The notes beneath the pieces are model-generated. The model was not told the origin of the DNA. It searched no databases and saw only the letters and a program-made list of their open reading frames with translations. A stretch of 30,393 nucleotides of DNA from a virus. The DNA lies in the IMG/VR virus record IMGVR_UViG_3300025161_000003, positions 1 to 30,393 of that record. One strand, written 5' to 3'. This document shows positions 1,781 through 30,393 of this stretch, one piece after another. The position numbers and the translations under genes are program-made. Each line of letters begins with the position of its first letter. The first letter of the stretch is position 1.

Positions 1781-3092
1781 CTTTGCTTTGTTCGTTGATC
1801 GAACCTATCGCGCTGCGCCCCACTTGGCAGAGATAGCTGGATGGCTGGAGCGAGTGGAGTGCGGCGAAATCAAGCGTCTGATGATTTTTGCGCCACCAAG
1901 GCATGGCAAAAGCAGGTTAGTAAGCGAGTTATTCCCTGCGTGGTGGCTGGGGCGTGATCCGTCTCAGCAATTCATTGTTGCCAGTCACACGGCTGAGTTA
2001 GCTGAGACATTTAGTCGCAACGTGCGCAACATGATTGATACCGAGATGTATGCAGACGCCTTCCCTGGTGTTGTCTTGAGCAGCGACAGCAAAGCTGTTC
2101 AGCAGTGGACGCTTGAAGGCTTCACGCGGCCGTCGTTCATCGCGGTTGGCGTTGGCGGTTCGCCGACTGGCAAAGGTGCTACGTGCATGATCGTTGATGA
2201 TCCGATCGGAAAGGCTGAAGAGGCGGACAGTCAATTGCAACGTGAGCATTTGTATACCTGGTATACGCAGACTATGCGCCCCCGTCTTGAGCCATCCGGC
2301 GCGATCATCCTCATGATGCAGCGTTGGCATGAGGACGATCTAGCCGGGCGACTATTGCGCGACGCCCAACGCGACGGTGAGCAGTGGCACGTCGTCAGCA
2401 TGCCAGCGATCAACAATGCAGGTAAGGCACTTTGGCCTGAGCGCTGGCCGCTCAGTGAACTTGAGGCGATTCGTAGCGTGTCTGTGCGCAGCTTCGAGGC
2501 TAAATACATGCAGCGGCCACGACCGGCAGAAGGTGCGTTATTCAAGCGCATTTGGTTGCGCACGATTGACGCAGGTAGCGTGCCGCAGGGATTGCGGTGG
2601 GTGCGTTACTGGGACTTAGCTTACAGCGTCAAACAAAGCGCTCACAACAGCGCCACTATCAGCGGCGCGATGGATGCCAACGGAACGATCTATCTTCGGC
2701 GCGGGTGGGCTGGGCGTGAAGAGACGCCCGACTTGCGCCGGCGCATCAAGATGATTATGTTGTCCGAACGGCGCGACCGGCATGGGATTGAAAAGGCGAT
2801 GCACGGGGGGAGTATTGTGCAAGACCTGCGGCGCGAGCCGGAATTGCTCAGTATCGCGTTCGAAGCTGTCGACATTGACAGCGATAAAGTCGTGCGTGCT
2901 ACGCCAGTAGCTGATCGAGCGGAAGCGGGCAAAGTATGCTTTGTGCGCGAGAGTGTCAGCGATGATGCTTGGATCGCCGATTGGATTGATGAACTATGCG
3001 CGTTCCCATTTGGCGCGCACGACGACCGCGTTGACGCTGTTTCCGGTGTGTTTGTTATGCTGAGCACAGCAAGCAAAGGCGTGTATTTATGA
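1713..3092 (+). CDS. terL: Terminase large subunit
   Basis: This is the ATPase/nuclease of the DNA packaging motor. The ATPase domain has a Walker-A-like APPRHGKS at about residues 60-67 and a Walker-B-like CMIVDDP near 158. The C-terminal RNase-H-like nuclease has an aspartate in YWDLA near 300 and a final acidic cluster in HDDRVDAVSGVF near 440. The frame stays open upstream to 1353, but that part is low-complexity and only shadows the small terminase. I therefore chose TTG 1713, preceded by AAGGCG, which gives 459 residues, the usual length. No in-frame ATG occurs before the ATPase motif, so the start is uncertain. The stop overlaps the portal ATG (ATGA). Confidence 0.9.
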   Translation: MAAREWKRQHRARQELARRHLIDFALFVDRTYRAAPHLAEIAGWLERVECGEIKRLMIFAPPRHGKSRLVSELFPAWWLGRDPSQQFIVASHTAELAETFSRNVRNMIDTEMYADAFPGVVLSSDSKAVQQWTLEGFTRPSFIAVGVGGSPTGKGATCMIVDDPIGKAEEADSQLQREHLYTWYTQTMRPRLEPSGAIILMMQRWHEDDLAGRLLRDAQRDGEQWHVVSMPAINNAGKALWPERWPLSELEAIRSVSVRSFEAKYMQRPRPAEGALFKRIWLRTIDAGSVPQGLRWVRYWDLAYSVKQSAHNSATISGAMDANGTIYLRRGWAGREETPDLRRRIKMIMLSERRDRHGIEKAMHGGSIVQDLRREPELLSIAFEAVDIDSDKVVRATPVADRAEAGKVCFVRESVSDDAWIADWIDELCAFPFGAHDDRVDAVSGVFVMLSTASKGVYL

Positions 3093-5137
3093 ATATCATT
3101 CAACGCATTGTTTCACGCTGGTTCGGCGATGCGCAATTGTCACAAGCAAAGGCTGCCTACAACGTCGTTCCGGTGGGTGTGCAGGGCAGGCCTTTTAGGC
3201 GCACTTATGATGCGGCCAAGCTCATCAGCGCTGCAAGAACCAACGAAGTTGTCTACGCTTGCATCAGCACCAAGCAGCGCACTGCGGTTGATCCACGCCT
3301 GTTTGTCGAACGACGCCAGAGTGATGGCCGATGGATAGAGATAGACGGTCATCCATTGCGCCGTCTTATCATGCGACCTAATGTTGATATGGACGAGATT
3401 GGCTTTTGGCAATGGTTTATTGCCAGCCGTGAAATCTGTGGCGAGTTTTACGCTGAGATCGTCCGATCGTCGAAGAATGGCCCGCCCGTCGCGTTGTATC
3501 CTCTCAATCCCGCGCTGGTTGATCCAATTCCTGCTAGCGATGGCACGATCAGCGGTTATCGCTGGCAGCTTGGTTATTTGAAGCAGGACATCCCAGCCAC
3601 CGACATGTTGGTTTGGCGCAATGTAGACATCGGCAACCGGTGGCGCGGGTTAAGCCCGCTTGCCGTTGCGCTGGGTGCCGTGGCTGGTGATACCGCGCAG
3701 ACTGATTATGTCAATGAGTTCTTCAAAGTAGGCGGCGTGCCGTCTGGCATTCTGACCATTAAAGGGCGCACGGTGACGCAAACAGAAGCCGATGAAATCC
3801 GAGAGCGATGGCGCGCAAAATTTTCACCGTCACTCTCCGGCAACATGAGTGATATTGCTGTGCTCGACGAGAATGCGGATTTCCAAGTGCTCGGCAGCCG
3901 TATGAGTGAGCTACAGTCTGAGGAGCTTCGCGGCGTTGCTGAGTCGCGCATCTGCATGGTTTTCGGCGTACCGCCGCTCGTGATCTATGCTTACATCGGT
4001 ATGCTGCGCGCGATTCAATCCAACTTACGTGAGGCGTGGCAGCAGTTTTGGGATAGCACACTTACGCCCGAATACAAGGCTATGCGTGCTTGGATGACGA
4101 CGGCGCTGTTGCCTGAGTTTGAAGATGATGATTTGGTTATGAGTGAACGCGTGCGGTGCCAGTGGGATATGTCGCAGGTTGCTGCGTTACAAGATGACGT
4201 AGATGGCATCCAAAAACGAGCGCGCGAGAATTGGAGAGCGGGCGGGATCACGCGCAACGAGTTTCGCTCTGTGATTGGTGCACAGCCTATCAGCGATGGC
4301 GACGTGTTCATAGATCAGATCAGCCGATCATTTGGAAGTGGATGGGGTAGGGGTAGCGATGAAACGCAACCAGAGGTAGAACAACGCGCTGTTCGCACGT
4401 CGCCGCTAGGTAAAAGTGCTAGTACTGCGTTTGCTCAGCGCAAAGCTGATGATGAGGTACGGCGCATTGACCGCAGCCGCGAGAAAATCATTGGCAAGGC
4501 GCGTCTCAAGATTGAGTCTTACTTGCTTGACGAATATGAAGGCGCCAGCGATCGAATAAAGCGCGATGGCATTGATGCAGCTACGGTTGGCGCTGACGAT
4601 GGAACAAAGCTCCAGAACATAATGCGTTCGTTCTATCGTCTTGCTCTGCGTGCCGCTTACGACGATACAAACGTTCTACTTGCCGATCAAGATGTCAGTG
4701 TGAGCTTTGATCTCGAGAACCCGCGCGTTCGTGATACTATCAATCAACTACTTGAGCAACTCAAGAACGACATCCCCAATACGACAAAAGAGGAAATCAG
4801 AGAATTCATAGCCGAAGGTCTGCGCGAGGGCTGGAGCACGGACAAGATTGGCGACGAGCTGCGCGCTGCTGCGCCTGACCTAACGGCGCGACGTGCTGAT
4901 ACCATTGCTCGGACGGAAGTTGCGCGCGCCCACTCCCGTGGCGCGTTGCTGAGTTATGAAGAGTCCGGCGTAGTGAGTGGTGTGGAATGGAACGCGACGC
5001 TCGACAATAAGACCAGTGAGATTTGTCAACGTTTGAACGGGCGTCGTGTGGCGCTTGGTGCGGCGTTTGAAGATGGCATCACTGAGCCACCTGCGCATCC
5101 AAATTGCCGTAGCGTCCTTTTGCCGGTAGTGGATTGA
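3089..5137 (+). CDS. Portal protein fused to MuF-type head morphogenesis domain
   Basis: The 682-residue protein has two parts. Residues 1 to about 410 are an HK97/SPP1-type portal, the dodecameric ring through which DNA enters the head. Supporting segments include RTNEVVYACISTKQRTA, FYAEIVRSSKNGPPVALYPL, WRGLSPLAVALG, EFFKVGGVPSGIL and RICMVFGVPPLVIY. After a charged linker (about 420-470) comes a helical region and then a MuF domain: ADTIARTEVARAHSRGAL, the TLDNKTSEICQRLNGR segment, and a final PPAHPNCRSVLLP near residues 603-682. In many phages portal and MuF are separate adjacent genes. The start overlaps the terminase stop. A promoter-like sequence overlaps the stop codon. Confidence 0.92.
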   Translation: MNIIQRIVSRWFGDAQLSQAKAAYNVVPVGVQGRPFRRTYDAAKLISAARTNEVVYACISTKQRTAVDPRLFVERRQSDGRWIEIDGHPLRRLIMRPNVDMDEIGFWQWFIASREICGEFYAEIVRSSKNGPPVALYPLNPALVDPIPASDGTISGYRWQLGYLKQDIPATDMLVWRNVDIGNRWRGLSPLAVALGAVAGDTAQTDYVNEFFKVGGVPSGILTIKGRTVTQTEADEIRERWRAKFSPSLSGNMSDIAVLDENADFQVLGSRMSELQSEELRGVAESRICMVFGVPPLVIYAYIGMLRAIQSNLREAWQQFWDSTLTPEYKAMRAWMTTALLPEFEDDDLVMSERVRCQWDMSQVAALQDDVDGIQKRARENWRAGGITRNEFRSVIGAQPISDGDVFIDQISRSFGSGWGRGSDETQPEVEQRAVRTSPLGKSASTAFAQRKADDEVRRIDRSREKIIGKARLKIESYLLDEYEGASDRIKRDGIDAATVGADDGTKLQNIMRSFYRLALRAAYDDTNVLLADQDVSVSFDLENPRVRDTINQLLEQLKNDIPNTTKEEIREFIAEGLREGWSTDKIGDELRAAAPDLTARRADTIARTEVARAHSRGALLSYEESGVVSGVEWNATLDNKTSEICQRLNGRRVALGAAFEDGITEPPAHPNCRSVLLPVVD

Positions 5138-5161
5138 CGGCGAAGGCAGATAGGCTAGAAT
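5134..5161 (+). promoter_or_regulatory. Sigma70-like promoter, copy 1
   Basis: TTGACG (5134-5139) and TAGAAT (5156-5161) are separated by 16 bases. The -35 box overlaps the portal stop codon. A start of transcription near 5168 would place the structured leader at the 5' end of the protease-capsid-tail message. A sister promoter with the same layout lies at 27839-27867. Confidence 0.6.
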
Positions 5162-5181
5162 CACCCACAATTCAATATAGA

Positions 5182-5243
5182 CGGCCAGAGCGATTACCGC
5201 GCGGCCATGTGCATAACCTGCACATGGCCGCGTGTTCTTTTCC
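5182..5243 (+). ncRNA. Structured leader element, copy 1 (attenuator or antitermination-like RNA)
   Basis: Bases 5182-5209 are identical to 27884-27911. A 14-bp perfect stem (5200-5213 with 5219-5232, loop TAACC) follows, and then a U-rich TGTTCTTTTCC. In the other copy the tip of the stem has a different sequence but still pairs, which argues for selection on RNA structure. It could be a terminator/attenuator, an mRNA-stabilising leader, or an antitermination RNA like the put sites of phage HK022. The sequence alone does not decide between these. Confidence 0.6.
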
Positions 5244-5252
5244 GGTTTACAC

Positions 5253-5978
5253 ATGGAGATCAAGACAACAACGCATCAGATTAAGTCTATTGATGGGCGC
5301 ACTGTTACTGGCATCTTTGCTGTGCATGGCAACGTAGACGATGGCGGTGACCGGTCGTGGCCTGGCGCGTTTGCCAAGACATTTGCTGAGCGCGCCGGCA
5401 AGGTGCGCTTTCTCTGGGGGCATGACTTTCTCAGTCCACCAATTGCGCGCATCATCAGTCTGCGCGAGGTTGGTCGTGATGAATTGCCTGAGTCTGTTTT
5501 AGCCGTTGCGCCTGATGCAATGGGCGGTGCAGAGGTGACGCGCGAATACCTCGACACGCCGCGCGGGAATGAAGTTTTGGACGGCATTAAAGCAGGTGCA
5601 ATCACTGAGATGAGTTATGCATACGACGCCGTGAAATTTGATTTTGAGGAGTTGGACGGCCGACGTGTGCGCAATCTACGTGAAGTGCGACTGTACGAGG
5701 TTAGTGACGTGAATTGGGGCATGAACCCAGCCACACAAGGCAGCAAGACTAGCTGGCTTATTGAACAGATCGCCTACTACATGACTGCACTCAAAAGTGG
5801 TGCTCGACATAGTGCCAGCGATATTGAACTCATCAATCAGATTGCAGCCAACGCTTTCGCGCTGGGTGCGACAAATATCAAGCTTATCAGTGACCAGGAC
5901 GATGACAAGAGCCGAGCCGAGCTAGTCTCACTCACTCGTACACGTCGACGTCTTGCATTGCTTCAGCTTTCTTTGTGA
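5253..5978 (+). CDS. HK97-family prohead protease (S78-type)
   Basis: The 241-residue serine protease would cleave the scaffold part of the capsid protein during head maturation. The family pattern is clear: FLWGHDFLSPPIARI contains the catalytic histidine (about His57), GAITEMSYAYDAVKF contains the catalytic serine (about Ser121), and the closing motif VRLYEVSDVNWGMNPAT is typical. ATG 5253 starts right after the leader hairpin and has no obvious Shine-Dalgarno sequence. GTG 5232 is an in-frame alternative inside the hairpin arm, so translation may be controlled by the fold. Capsid protein follows after 11 bases. Confidence 0.92.
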   Translation: MEIKTTTHQIKSIDGRTVTGIFAVHGNVDDGGDRSWPGAFAKTFAERAGKVRFLWGHDFLSPPIARIISLREVGRDELPESVLAVAPDAMGGAEVTREYLDTPRGNEVLDGIKAGAITEMSYAYDAVKFDFEELDGRRVRNLREVRLYEVSDVNWGMNPATQGSKTSWLIEQIAYYMTALKSGARHSASDIELINQIAANAFALGATNIKLISDQDDDKSRAELVSLTRTRRRLALLQLSL

Positions 5979-7195: not shown

Positions 7196-7203
7196 TTTTT
7201 TGG

Positions 7204-7241
7204 GCGACGCTCTGCGTAGTCAATCTTACGCAGAGCGTCGC
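7204..7241. other. Perfect intergenic hairpin after the capsid gene
   Basis: A 15-bp perfect stem pairs 7204-7218 with 7227-7241 around an eight-base loop. There is no U-run after it on either strand (T6 lies upstream on the plus strand), so it does not look like an ordinary terminator. Its position right behind the capsid gene suggests RNA protection or processing that raises capsid output over the genes downstream. Confidence 0.65.
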
Positions 7242-7255
7242 GAAAGAACAAATAC

Positions 7256-7576
7256 GTGATTACCGACGATTTCTTCATTCCCGAAACCGACATCACTGAG
7301 ACATTGGCCGACGGTCGGGTGATTTTGGTTGAGCCGGCTGGGATTCCGATTCCGCTTCATCTGGCGCGTGAGCGCGGTTATCTCAAAGATCATCAACGAG
7401 CAGGCCCCAGCGAGACAAAAGGGGAGGCGACCGAGGCGACCGAGGCGACCGAGGCGACCGAGGCGACCGAGGCGACCGAGGCGACCGAGGCGACCGAGGC
7501 GACCGAGGCGACCGAGGCTGCTAGCAACGTGAGTGTTCGCATCAACGACAAGCGATCAAAAGCCGAGCGCAAATAA
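7256..7576 (+). CDS. Small head-region protein with Glu-Ala-Thr repeat
   Basis: The 106-residue protein starts at GTG 7256 (VITDDFFIPETDITETL). The N-terminal 45 residues look folded (GRVILVEPAGIPIPLHLARERGYL). Ten exact Glu-Ala-Thr tripeptides follow, encoded by a 9-bp tandem repeat, and then a short basic tail (INDKRSKAERK). The position between major capsid and head-tail connector fits a head-decoration, linker or connector accessory protein. I do not recognise a family. The repeat is acidic and flexible and probably acts as a spacer; its length should vary between relatives. Confidence 0.7.
   Translation: MITDDFFIPETDITETLADGRVILVEPAGIPIPLHLARERGYLKDHQRAGPSETKGEATEATEATEATEATEATEATEATEATEATEAASNVSVRINDKRSKAERK
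7424..7513 (+). repeat. 9-bp tandem repeat (GAGGCGACC), ten copies
   Basis: Ten perfect, uninterrupted copies of GAGGCGACC run in frame and encode Glu-Ala-Thr. Perfect identity between copies suggests recent expansion or continuing slippage. Confidence 0.97.
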
Positions 7577-26243: not shown

Positions 26244-26468
26244 TCATGTAACCTCCTTTGCCAGCACATCGCTGAGCGCATCGGTAAACAAGGCGTAGCG
26301 AAGCAGCTTGTTGACCAACTCTTGCTTCGAAATACCCACCTGCGCCTTGAGCGCGTCGAGCGCCTGGTTCACATCACCGTCAAGTAACACAGTTTTCGTC
26401 GTGGTCTCGGACGGCTTCGCTGCGCGCAGCACCTTGACCAGTCGGGGATTCGGTTGAATGTTGGTCAT
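26244..26468 (-). CDS. Ribbon-helix-helix-like DNA-binding protein
   Basis: The 74-residue protein has the ribbon-helix-helix layout: a strand region (TTTKTVLLDGDVNQAL) and two helices (QALDALKAQVGISKQELVNK, LLRYALFTDALSDVLAKEVT) with the 'GiSk.elvn.ll' turn typical of CopG/Arc-like regulators. It is divergently oriented to the XRE gene across 78 bases that hold a promoter whose boxes lie in the arms of an inverted repeat. A Cro-like or early regulator role is likely. A GC-rich hairpin closes the gene. Confidence 0.65.
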   Translation of the reverse strand: MTNIQPNPRLVKVLRAAKPSETTTKTVLLDGDVNQALDALKAQVGISKQELVNKLLRYALFTDALSDVLAKEVT

Positions 26469-26482
26469 GTCTATGAATGACG

Positions 26483-26517
26483 CCTATTGTATAAATCAAT
26501 TCGTAAAAGTCAATAGG
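26483..26517. promoter_or_regulatory. Operator-like inverted repeat in the divergent immunity region
   Basis: CCTATTG (26483-26489) and CAATAGG (26511-26517) are perfect inverted copies 21 bases apart. Each arm overlaps one box of the minus-strand promoter, so a protein bound to both arms would block it. The binder could be the XRE repressor or the RHH protein. Confidence 0.5.
26486..26513 (-). promoter_or_regulatory. Early minus-strand promoter
   Basis: Reading the minus strand, TTGACT (26513-26508) and TACAAT (26491-26486) are separated by 16 bases. The transcript would start near 26479, leaving only about 11 bases before ATG 26468. This is the most likely promoter for the RHH gene and the early operon. 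Confidence 0.65.
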
Positions 26518-27232: not shown

Positions 27233-27657
27233 TCGTTACCGTGTAAAACCGTTTGCAAGTCGCACCTAACCCGCACCTAAAAAGGCCTAAGTCGCACCAG
27301 AACAATCGTTCTAGTGCGCACTTATGGCATGTATGCTTGCCATAACTGTCGAGAGAACAAAAGTTCTGGTGCGACTTAGGTGCGACTTAGGTGCGACTTG
27401 TTTTGAAAAAATCGGCTTTTTTTGGCTTCGGGTGCGACTGGTGCGACTTGAATCTAAACTGATTTTGTAGAGCGAATTTCTGTATATATATGTAAAGTGA
27501 GGGGTGTAAAAACGTATATATAGAAACGGTTTTCGCCAAGTCGCACCACTATCACCACAACAGCAGTGGTGGCGCGCTTTTCAAGGCGTAAGGATCGCAA
27601 TATTTGCAGGTTGTCGCACAAAGGGCGACTATTGCCATAGGCGCGTAAGCGCAACGG
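27233..27657. other. Non-coding repeat region: iteron-like array with AT-rich stretch
   Basis: This 425-base stretch holds no gene that I accept. It contains at least eight copies of GGTGCGACTT or its reverse (AAGTCGCACC): 27257-27266, 27289-27298, 27368-27377, 27379-27388, 27390-27399, 27440-27449 and 27538-27547, plus shortened copies at 27271-27280 and 27431-27439. Three copies at 27368-27400 stand exactly 11 bp apart. An AT-rich block with two GTATATATA runs lies at 27482-27522. Two inverted repeats, TAAGTCGCACCAGAAC with its mirror (27288-27324) and TATGGCA...TGCCATA (27323-27344), occupy the centre. The layout fits a replication origin, centromere or multi-site operator. Confidence 0.7.
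27368..27400 (+). repeat. 11-bp direct repeats GGTGCGACTTA, three copies
   Basis: Copies at 27368-27378, 27379-27389 and 27390-27400 (the last ends in G). The 11-bp period, close to one helical turn, places each copy on the same face of the DNA. Confidence 0.9.
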
Positions 27658-27864
27658 ATGACATTGCACTCAGAATCGGAACTGACCACGTTGACTTCGT
27701 CGCAGATGCAAGCTCTTGAGAAGTGCATTGCGTTCATTCGTCGCGCACTTGAAGTGACTGGCTCGTCGTATTTGACAATCACCGAGATGCACATTCGGCC
27801 TGATAAATGCGTGGGCAAGGTTGACATGAGCATCGTGATTGACGACAAAAGCAAAAAAGATTAG
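27658..27864 (+). CDS. Small protein before the late promoter, unknown function
   Basis: The 68-residue protein (MTLHSESELTTLTSSQMQAL onward) has an amphipathic helix (QMQALEKCIAFIRRALEVTG), then beta strands (SSYLTITEMHIRPDKCVGKV, DMSIVIDD) and a Lys-rich end. The start has no strong ribosome site. It lies between the repeat array and a promoter-leader module, whose -10 box overlaps the stop codon of this gene. No family is recognised. It could regulate the late module at its end, by position only. Confidence 0.55.
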   Translation: MTLHSESELTTLTSSQMQALEKCIAFIRRALEVTGSSYLTITEMHIRPDKCVGKVDMSIVIDDKSKKD

Positions 27865-27867
27865 GAT
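27839..27867 (+). promoter_or_regulatory. Sigma70-like promoter, copy 2
   Basis: TTGACG (27839-27844) and TAGGAT (27862-27867) are 17 bases apart. The -10 box overlaps the stop codon of the gene ending at 27864. Transcription from about 27874 would make the message for holin through portal across the window ends. The layout copies the promoter at 5134-5161. Confidence 0.6.
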
Positions 27868-27883
27868 ACGTCCAACGAACTAG

Positions 27884-27946
27884 CGGCCAGAGCGATTACC
27901 GCGCGGCCATGAGTTAATGACTCATGGCCGCGCGGTCGCTTTCCGC
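27884..27946 (+). ncRNA. Structured leader element, copy 2
   Basis: Bases 27884-27911 are identical to 5182-5209. A perfect 17-bp stem (27898-27914 with 27920-27936, loop TAATG) forms, and AGCG (27891-27894) can extend it by pairing with CGCT (27937-27940). A short pyrimidine run (TTTCC) follows. Between the copies the stem tip changes from GTGCA/TGCAC to GAGT/ACTC while staying paired. Its role (attenuator, antitermination RNA or mRNA protection) is not proved. Confidence 0.6.
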
Positions 27947-27965: not shown

Positions 27966-28277
27966 ATGACATCAACTGAACTTTCTGCTGTGGCCGGCGT
28001 CGCGTTGTCGCTGGCATGTTCGTATGTGCCGGGTCTTTCGACTTGGTTCAACGATCGCTCTCCGACCGCAAAGCGTCTCATCATGGCGATGTTGCTATTG
28101 CTTGTCGCCGTTGGCGCATTTGTGCTTTCGTGTATCAACGTTGACGTGGCCGACGCTGTACGTGTTGTTGAGTGCACTCAGCGCGGTGCGTGGGATCTGG
28201 TAGCTGCTTACATTGCAGCGCTTGTGGCAAATCAAGCAACGTATCAGATCAGCCCACAGCTACGACGCGATTACTGA
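27966..28277 (+). CDS. Holin-like membrane protein
   Basis: The 103-residue protein starts at ATG 27966 (MTSTELSAVAGVALSLACSY). It has three hydrophobic stretches: near residues 5-20, a strong one near 35-55 (KRLIMAMLLLLVAVGAFVLS), and a weaker one near 75-90 (GAWDLVAAYIAALVANQATY). The motif YVPGLSTWFNDRSPTAKRLIMA and the ending VANQATYQISP match a type of holin-like protein seen in many phages. Holins form membrane holes that trigger lysis. It is the first gene behind the second leader module. The lack of an endolysin nearby leaves the lysis pathway incomplete. Confidence 0.65.
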   Translation: MTSTELSAVAGVALSLACSYVPGLSTWFNDRSPTAKRLIMAMLLLLVAVGAFVLSCINVDVADAVRVVECTQRGAWDLVAAYIAALVANQATYQISPQLRRDY

Positions 28278-28553: not shown

Positions 28554-28753
28554 AAATCGCGCTGCGTGACACGCTGACGAGCAAATTTGACATGAGTGAG
28601 CTGCAATTGCTGGTGCATGAAATCGGGGCAAAGTGGGAAGACATACCTGGTGACACGATTACGGAGAAAGCGATAGGCATCATCGAATGGGCCAAGCGAC
28701 GTGGACGCATTCAGCAACTCATTCAGATCGTTGCACGGCTGCGACCGGATTAG
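28550..28753 (+). CDS. Effector-associated (death-like adaptor) domain, start codon unclear
   Basis: The frame reads LEIALRDTLTSKFDMSELQL, then LVHEIGAKWEDIPGDTITEK, AIGIIEWAKRRGRIQQLIQI and VARLRPD. This is the full pattern of the small helical effector-associated domains (EAD type: 'LR..L...F...EL..L....G...e.lPG......KA..li.w..r.GRl..Li..i...RPd') that link NTPases, proteases and TIR-like effectors in bacterial conflict systems. The only standard start in frame is ATG 28592, which would cut off the first helix. No ATG, GTG or TTG precedes it after the in-frame stop near 28470. Options are a -1 shift at the end of the upstream gene (GGTCTAG), a rare start at ATC 28556 with AGAGGTGG ten bases upstream, or a sequencing error. 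Confidence 0.6.
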   Translation, partial: LEIALRDTLTSKFDMSELQLLVHEIGAKWEDIPGDTITEKAIGIIEWAKRRGRIQQLIQIVARLRPD

Positions 28754-30029: not shown

Positions 30030-30393
30030 ATGTCGCGCCACGTTTTTCGACGGCCAATTGATCCTCGACGTACGCGCCTACATCCTGCGCTTTATGGCGC
30101 CGGTCTGTCTACATACTTTCAGACTCTCGCGGCTACAGCGTCGAGTTCCGCGACGATGAGTCGCAGCATCGGCAAGCAGGTCATCGCCACAGTCGGCAGC
30201 GTCGCGACGATGAGTCGCAGCATTGGCAAGCAGGTCATCGCCACAGTCGGCAGCGTCGCGACGATGAGTCGCAGCATCGGCAAGCAAGTCATCGCCACAG
30301 TCGGCAGCGTCGCGATGATGAGTCGCAGCATCGGCAAGCAGGTCATCGCCACAGTCGGCAGCGTCGCGATGATGAGTCGCAGCATCGGCAAGC
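30030..30393 (+). CDS. 18-residue-repeat protein, N-terminal part (runs off the window end)
   Basis: ATG 30030 is 14 bases after the previous stop. The N-terminus is basic (MSRHVFRRPIDPRRTRLHPA) and then LYGAGLSTYFQTLAATASSSAT leads into the 18-residue units. Four complete units and a partial one follow before the window ends, with no stop. The frame continues at base 1 and ends at 452, so the whole protein would be at least 271 residues; the real number of units is unknown because both ends of the window sit in the repeat. An Arg-rich N-terminus, amphipathic repeats and a different C-terminus suggest a scaffold, membrane-associated or surface-layer protein of the virion. The function is unknown. 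Confidence 0.75.
   Translation, partial: MSRHVFRRPIDPRRTRLHPALYGAGLSTYFQTLAATASSSATMSRSIGKQVIATVGSVATMSRSIGKQVIATVGSVATMSRSIGKQVIATVGSVAMMSRSIGKQVIATVGSVAMMSRSIGK
30156..30393 (+). repeat. 54-bp tandem repeat, right-end copies
   Basis: Copies start at 30156, 30210, 30264 and 30318, with a partial copy from 30372 to the end. These copies are nearly identical, more so than the left-end ones. The copy number at the junction of the two ends cannot be known from this window. Confidence 0.97.

Follow-up and report, generated by a model that had tools for sequence, protein, structure and literature searches.

A duplicated leader with two competing hairpins as a candidate attenuator of phage late genes

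Results

Two copies of a leader module precede late gene groups

In a 30,393-nt record of a little-studied bacterial virus (IMG/VR IMGVR_UViG_3300025161_000003, positions 1 to 30,393; the whole stretch analysed, here called the window), two gene groups are each preceded by a module of promoter-like boxes, a short leader and a GC-rich, terminator-shaped hairpin, both copies of which had been recognized in a first-pass annotation of the sequence. The leader of each module can also adopt a second fold, a hairpin in competition with the terminator. We put at about 50% the probability that the modules act as promoter-proximal transcription attenuators, each for one late transcription unit. Since a relative carries the module pair at the same two places, both late gene groups are probably held off by this stop signal until transcription is let through, and the attenuator at the two units would probably be set by a trans-acting factor.

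The + strand of the window carries the head and tail genes (terminase, a portal protein with a Mu F-like domain, an S78 protease, an HK97-type capsid protein, connector, and tape measure) and a further gene group at 27.7-30.0 kb, while a serine integrase and a primase lie on the − strand. An identical 54-nt tandem repeat is present at both ends of the record, and in the relative L007 (IMGVR_UViG_3300036046_000367) the order from lysis-type genes to terminase to portal is uninterrupted; the late region therefore most likely starts at ~27.9 kb and runs across the record ends to 15.6 kb. The terminal repeats (1-380 and 30075-30392) encode an 18-aa repeat (MSRSIGKQVIATVGSVAM), such that the record probably closes within one repeat gene, and L007 has a long repeat protein at the matching position.

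Other features of the window lie outside the modules. A 53-aa protein in the lysis-type cluster (28592-28750, + strand) matches EAD7 (Effector-associated domain 7; E = 1.4e-12, above the Pfam cut-off), a domain that here stands alone in a phage, and a similar small protein occupies the equivalent position in L007 (4945-5148). Direct and inverted repeats around AAGTCGCACC/GGTGCGACTT are clustered in the gap between an HTH gene and a 68-aa gene (27256-27556), which could be an origin, operator, or attachment region. On the − strand, TTGACT-N16-TACAAT (26486-26513) lies directly upstream of the leftward gene 26244-26468, likely the start of a leftward early operon. An inverted repeat without a T-run in gene direction (7197-7248; 15-bp perfect core at 7204-7241) separates the capsid gene from the next gene, and a tandem 9-nt repeat, GAGGCGACC (7424-7531), encodes a Thr-Glu-Ala repeat within a small gene that follows the capsid gene.

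Module 1 (W1) occupies the portal-protease junction, with all its parts on the + strand. The stop codon of the portal gene (3089..5137) overlaps the −35 box of the promoter-like pair (5134..5161), which consists of TTGACG (5134-5139), a 16-nt spacer, and TAGAAT (5156-5161); the stem follows 37 nt after the end of the −10 box. A 28-nt block (5182..5209), correctly noted by the first-pass annotation as an exact match to 27884-27911, spans the antiterminator-like hairpin AT1 (5183..5206; GGCCAGAGCG-AUUAC-CGCGCGGCC, −10.3 kcal/mol). The 3′ side of AT1 is at the same time the base of the 5′ arm of T1, a terminator-type hairpin (5199..5233) of 15 pairs with the loop UAACC and −29.9 kcal/mol, after which comes the U-rich tail GUUCUUUUCC (5234..5243). 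The first gene behind the module encodes the prohead protease (Peptidase_S78; 5253..5978), whose ATG lies 20 nt past the CGCG end of the T1 stem.

Module 2 (W2), likewise on the + strand, stands at the head of the late region behind the conserved 68-aa gene (27658..27864), which is 49% identical in L007. Its boxes (27839..27867) are TTGACG (27839-27844) and TAGGAT (27862-27867) with a 17-nt spacer, and 33 nt separate the end of the −10 box from the stem. Within the second copy of the block (27884..27911, exact match to 5182-5209), the hairpin AT2 (27885..27908) is identical to AT1; the terminator-type hairpin T2 (27898..27936) reaches −36.4 kcal/mol and is followed by CGCUUUCC, a tail that is pyrimidine-rich, as in module 1, but a poor U-tract. 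The first late gene behind the module (27966..28277) encodes a hydrophobic protein with a homologue in L007 (4414-4701).

For comparison, we used the two copies in L007 (L71 and L72) and a single copy in the relative L008 (L8). When the 75 nt before the stem were scored against random 75-nt stretches of the same strand, four modules appeared promoter-like (p = 0.0037 for W1, 0.0063 for W2, 0.0020 for L71, and 0.0087 for L72), to be read with caution for copy 2, where the −35 box lies inside the 3′ end of a coding region at conserved Ile-Asp-Asp codons; at the same site, the stop codon is contained in the −10 boxes. L8 showed no consensus promoter at the usual place in these 75 nt (p = 0.66), and in 4/5 modules the boxes sit at a fixed 33-39 nt from the stem. 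The combination TTGAC...TANNAT...GCGCGGCC occurs twice per genome on the gene strand of the window and L007, with no occurrence on their opposite strands or in the reversed control. Both module promoters are presumably used. As a separate observation, L008 (1880-1897) and the sequences upstream of the protease in L014 and L054 show TTGACA/C, 7 nt, and then TACAAT, TATACT, or TATTAT, an unusual box spacing seen three times before these leaders.

The terminator-shaped hairpin covaries

The stems of all five modules are GC-rich, comprise 14-18 pairs, and reach about −30 to −36 kcal/mol; the leader folds of the window have z-scores of −5.5 (copy 1) and −8.8 (copy 2). The U-tract is reasonable in W1, L71, L72, and L8 (tail score, 2.0-3.9) and poor in W2 (0.3-0.5), so copy 1 is the better terminator and termination at T2 may be weak. 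All five copies have the same 9-nt stem base GCGCGGCCA and the same partner arm except for the outermost pair (G-U or G-C), and the tips vary with compensation (TGTGCA/TGCACA, TGAGT/ACTCA, TGTCTG/CAGACA, CGAGTC/GACTCG, and TTCCGA/TCGGAG).

The compensated tip change first seen between the two copies of the window thus extends across relatives. In the five hairpins, 25/25 tip pairs form between own arms and 52/100 between swapped arms, and among 120 permutations the true arm pairing alone reached the own-arm score. All 12 modelled stem pairs form in all five sequences (60 cells, 100% paired); 3 of the 12 pairs are changed on both sides, and the covariation score was matched by only 1 of 500 shuffles. 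Conserved coding across the hairpin was considered and ruled out, as the reading frames differ between copies.

By their form, these hairpins would terminate transcription. Only 13-33 nt lie between stem and start codon, which leaves no room for another promoter, so that the downstream genes must be transcribed through the hairpin. A scan of the window and L007 for stems of at least 8 with a T-rich tail in gene direction, whose T threshold W2 itself falls below, returned no other hairpin. An additional pairing of the leader is possible with the tail beyond the terminator, in the window and L007 and, weakly, in L008.

A second hairpin captures the terminator arm

Folded only up to the 5′ arm, the leader forms a second hairpin in the same register in 5/5 modules: GGCC(A)G-A-GCG / CGC-G-C-GGCC in W1, W2, and L8; GGC(A)CG-G-GCGA / UCGC-G-CG-GCC in L71; and GGCUG-A-GCAA / UUGC-G-CGGCC in L72. 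Its 3′ side is the base of the terminator 5′ arm, and the two hairpins are therefore mutually exclusive. In prefix folding of W1, the antiterminator and the terminator tip stand side by side until 5228, and the terminator replaces this state from 5231.

Random 24-mers placed before the same arm paired in register in 2.7-3.6% of cases under strict and 15-18% under relaxed rules; the window, L72, and L8 pair under the strict and all modules under the relaxed rules, in a comparison that was framed after the structure had been seen and that covers five modules from three phages, with two antiterminators identical. The energy of the antiterminator is modest (dinucleotide-shuffle p = 0.0025-0.054; genomic p = 0.06-0.38). 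One paired change falls outside the terminator, GCG/CGC (window and L71) becoming GCA/UGC (L72), that is, G-C to A-U; in this pair L72 departs from L71, the window, and L8. The window and L8 have the same 5′ arm GGCCAGAGCG, a sequence not required by the terminator, despite 41% identity at fourfold sites of the protease. A peptide-controlled attenuator was ruled out, as the leader lacks an ATG start codon ahead of the stem.

Within a genome, the antiterminator is common to both copies, over 24/24 nt in the window and over the loop and top helix region AGAATCAATYGCGCGGCC in L007, and its sequence differs between the two phages. Sharing within and difference between genomes is what a common recognizing factor would produce; local gene conversion is an alternative explanation of the sharing. 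The competing hairpin as a whole is the least certain step of our reading.

Both copies are kept in a relative

L007 carries two copies at the same two places as the window, one at the portal-protease junction and the other behind the 68-aa gene homologue and ahead of the late genes. This synteny supports, by inference, the shared control of the two late transcription units that had been suggested from the window. L008 carries one copy, at the portal-protease junction; there, the portal match starts only at residue 50, at the contig end, and the second site is therefore not visible. The portal proteins of the window and L007 are 80% identical, with 47% identity at fourfold sites (silent sites are saturated), and the proteases of the window and L011 are 76% identical, with 41% at fourfold sites.

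Among 62 protease relatives, seven more distant ones (protease 41-48% identical where aligned) have a GC hairpin and T-run of different sequence directly before the protease. Such terminator-like hairpins before the protease start were seen in L014, L054, L059, L064, L071, L040, and L012; several distant relatives seem to have another hairpin just upstream, for which GUGC/GCAC in L014 versus GUUC/GAAC in L059 looks compensated.

Broader searches yielded little. A covariance model, proposed earlier as a way to search for the leader, found no additional copy over 81 loci (1.0 Mb). The exact core pattern hit 61 IMG/VR contigs, which apart from the known ones have neither the T-rich tail nor the rest of the module; with a looser pattern, the best-paired among the matches listed were different hairpins. 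The element is absent from TerL relatives at 56-66% identity. The 400 Chloroflexota genomes searched gave two weak matches, one of them an ordinary chromosomal terminator-like hairpin, and the sole match in phage records (24 nt, E = 0.4) is a chance one. The first-pass annotation knew of no such module in this kind of phage; the window has no Rfam match up to E = 1 and we found no comparable module in the literature, which does not prove its absence.

A capsid query returned a near-identical contig only, and a portal query returned nothing in named genomes. As to the host, protease relatives in named genomes were found in a Chloroflexi bacterium, an Anaerolineales MAG, and a Pyrinomonadaceae MAG (46-55% identity), with a weak match in a Firestonebacteria MAG; 7 of the 400 Chloroflexota genomes had a protease match, six of them much weaker. 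With matches spread over Chloroflexota, Pyrinomonadaceae, and Firestonebacteria MAGs, the host is uncertain.

A small gene beside module 2

The 68-aa gene before module 2 lies at the position of Q in lambda. Its model, of moderate quality (pLDDT 74), consists of a helix and two strands and has no fold match at E <= 0.001, and a sequence search with the protein retrieved L007 only. For a Q-type protein, no Pfam or PHROG match was found in the window, and the 68-aa gene belongs to no family. Among the scanned window proteins, none has a known antiterminator domain, CAT and ANTAR included; a protein of the host could act instead.

Discussion

A proposed mechanism and its alternatives

In the mechanism that we propose, RNA polymerase would start ~30 nt upstream of the stem, and the nascent leader would fold first into the antiterminator hairpin, with a GGCC/GGCC base, a purine mismatch, a short GCR/YGC top, and a 5-7 nt loop. 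This hairpin would hold the bottom 8 nt of the terminator 5′ arm. Without a factor, the terminator (−30 to −36 kcal/mol) would displace the antiterminator (−10 to −14 kcal/mol) once its 3′ arm is made, and transcription would stop at the U-rich tail, ahead of the first codon. If a phage (or host) factor stabilized the antiterminator, only the terminator tip could pair, far from the U-tract; in LicT and ANTAR systems, it is established that stabilizing the antiterminator leaves a shorter terminator stem at a distance from the U-tract (PMC3369936). Read-through would then reach the lysis-type, terminase, and portal genes at module 2, and the protease, capsid, and tail genes at module 1. One factor would serve both sites, from which it would follow that the antiterminator is shared within a genome and that the terminator tips drift but stay paired. 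The sequence itself shows the module, its duplication and synteny, the covariation of the terminator, and the overlap of the two hairpins; promoter use, termination at the hairpin, the stabilizing factor, and the timing of the control are predictions. More tentatively, we suggest a phage-specific form of late antitermination, in which a single trans-acting factor might recognize one small RNA hairpin present at both late promoters and might block the local terminator instead of modifying polymerase; as with N and boxB, factor and hairpin would coevolve in each phage.

Several other readings account for part of these data. The hairpin could be an ordinary terminator like tR′, with a phage protein loading onto polymerase at the promoter DNA and enabling it to pass this and later terminators. 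The order of small gene, promoter, terminator, membrane-protein genes, terminase, portal, and protease is lambda-like, and Q and AlpA do act at a promoter closely followed by an intrinsic terminator; yet the −35/−10 spacers, where Q and AlpA bind, are unlike in the two copies, no −10-like pause element is common to the modules (by inspection, CAATAT/TATAGA occurs only in W1), the shared block lies in the leader, and the small gene has no recognizable fold match. We consider this reading unlikely. We regard it as distinctly unlikely that the modules are plain partial terminators or insulators that end upstream or stray transcripts with a fixed, unregulated fraction of read-through. The hairpin and U-tail are good, distant phages have a terminator-like hairpin right before the protease, and behind a gene in the chromosome of a Chloroflexota genome the GCGCGGCCAC stem recurs in a terminator-like hairpin; left unexplained, however, are the upstream promoters, the conservation of the antiterminator 5′ arm, and the 28-nt identity within the genome.

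A hairpin 13-33 nt before start codons that lack a clear Shine-Dalgarno sequence would also suit an mRNA 5′ stabilizer or processing signal, or a short, stable transcript of the promoter. This we consider very improbable, as neither the U-rich tails nor the alternative hairpin would be needed, and many genes of this phage are without a Shine-Dalgarno sequence anyway. The first-pass annotation had likened the leaders to HK022 put sites, with attenuators as the other option. Two copies behind promoters and a transient two-hairpin state in prefix folding are indeed reminiscent of a leader RNA that itself binds polymerase and confers resistance to later terminators, but the final fold before these late genes is one stem with a U-rich tail and not the two bulged stem-loops that putRNAs form at early promoters, and the late region yielded no further strong hairpin terminators; we rate this the most improbable of the readings. 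The attenuator option fits better, because the leader can form another hairpin in competition with the terminator.

Comparison with known systems

Late-gene control is known mostly from enterobacterial phages. If our reading is right, the module would represent a late-gene switch that is built from an RNA attenuator and occurs at two sites of one genome. Two Chloroflexota MAGs are among the nearest relatives of these phages in named genomes, the host being uncertain. The module offers an RNA that can be tested directly and, next to it, a small candidate gene, and the paired arrangement separates a constant part, the antiterminator, from a part that only needs to pair, the terminator tip.

The closest known layout is pR′-tR′ of lambda and 21 under Q, together with AlpA of Pseudomonas, where promoter, short leader, intrinsic terminator, and late or lysis genes follow one another with a small gene just upstream. 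The window differs from these in having a second module and in placing the shared block within the transcribed leader. The spacers of four modules share no evident element between −35 and −10, though they may contain an unrecognized motif, and no −10-like pause element is conserved in the initial transcribed region. Lambda-type nut sites (boxA/boxB with N) likewise come as two sites whose hairpin sequence is common within a phage and differs between phages, as seen here, but no boxA precedes our hairpin, which moreover overlaps a terminator. As in RAT/LicT and ANTAR attenuators, the antiterminator overlaps the terminator 5′ arm and the two are mutually exclusive; unlike there, the scanned window proteins yielded neither a CAT nor an ANTAR domain, no dual hexaloop is present, and the genes concerned are phage late genes and not metabolic ones.

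HK022, too, has a pair of related leader RNAs, putL and putR, each behind a promoter, but putRNAs are about 70 nt long with two stem-loops and lie behind early promoters (PMC9378689), as opposed to one stem with a terminator tail before late, structural operons. The start-associated sequences (SAS/ESAS) of Cluster K mycobacteriophages are likewise inverted repeats that recur ahead of gene starts and are conserved from phage to phage; they differ in their many copies, a 13-bp motif with 17-bp imperfect repeats, and a proposed role in translation initiation (PMC3203893). In kind, the arrangement described here would be a variant of promoter-proximal attenuation or antitermination of phage late genes; what appears to be new is a second hairpin, which the leader ahead of the stem can form and which captures the terminator 5′ arm.
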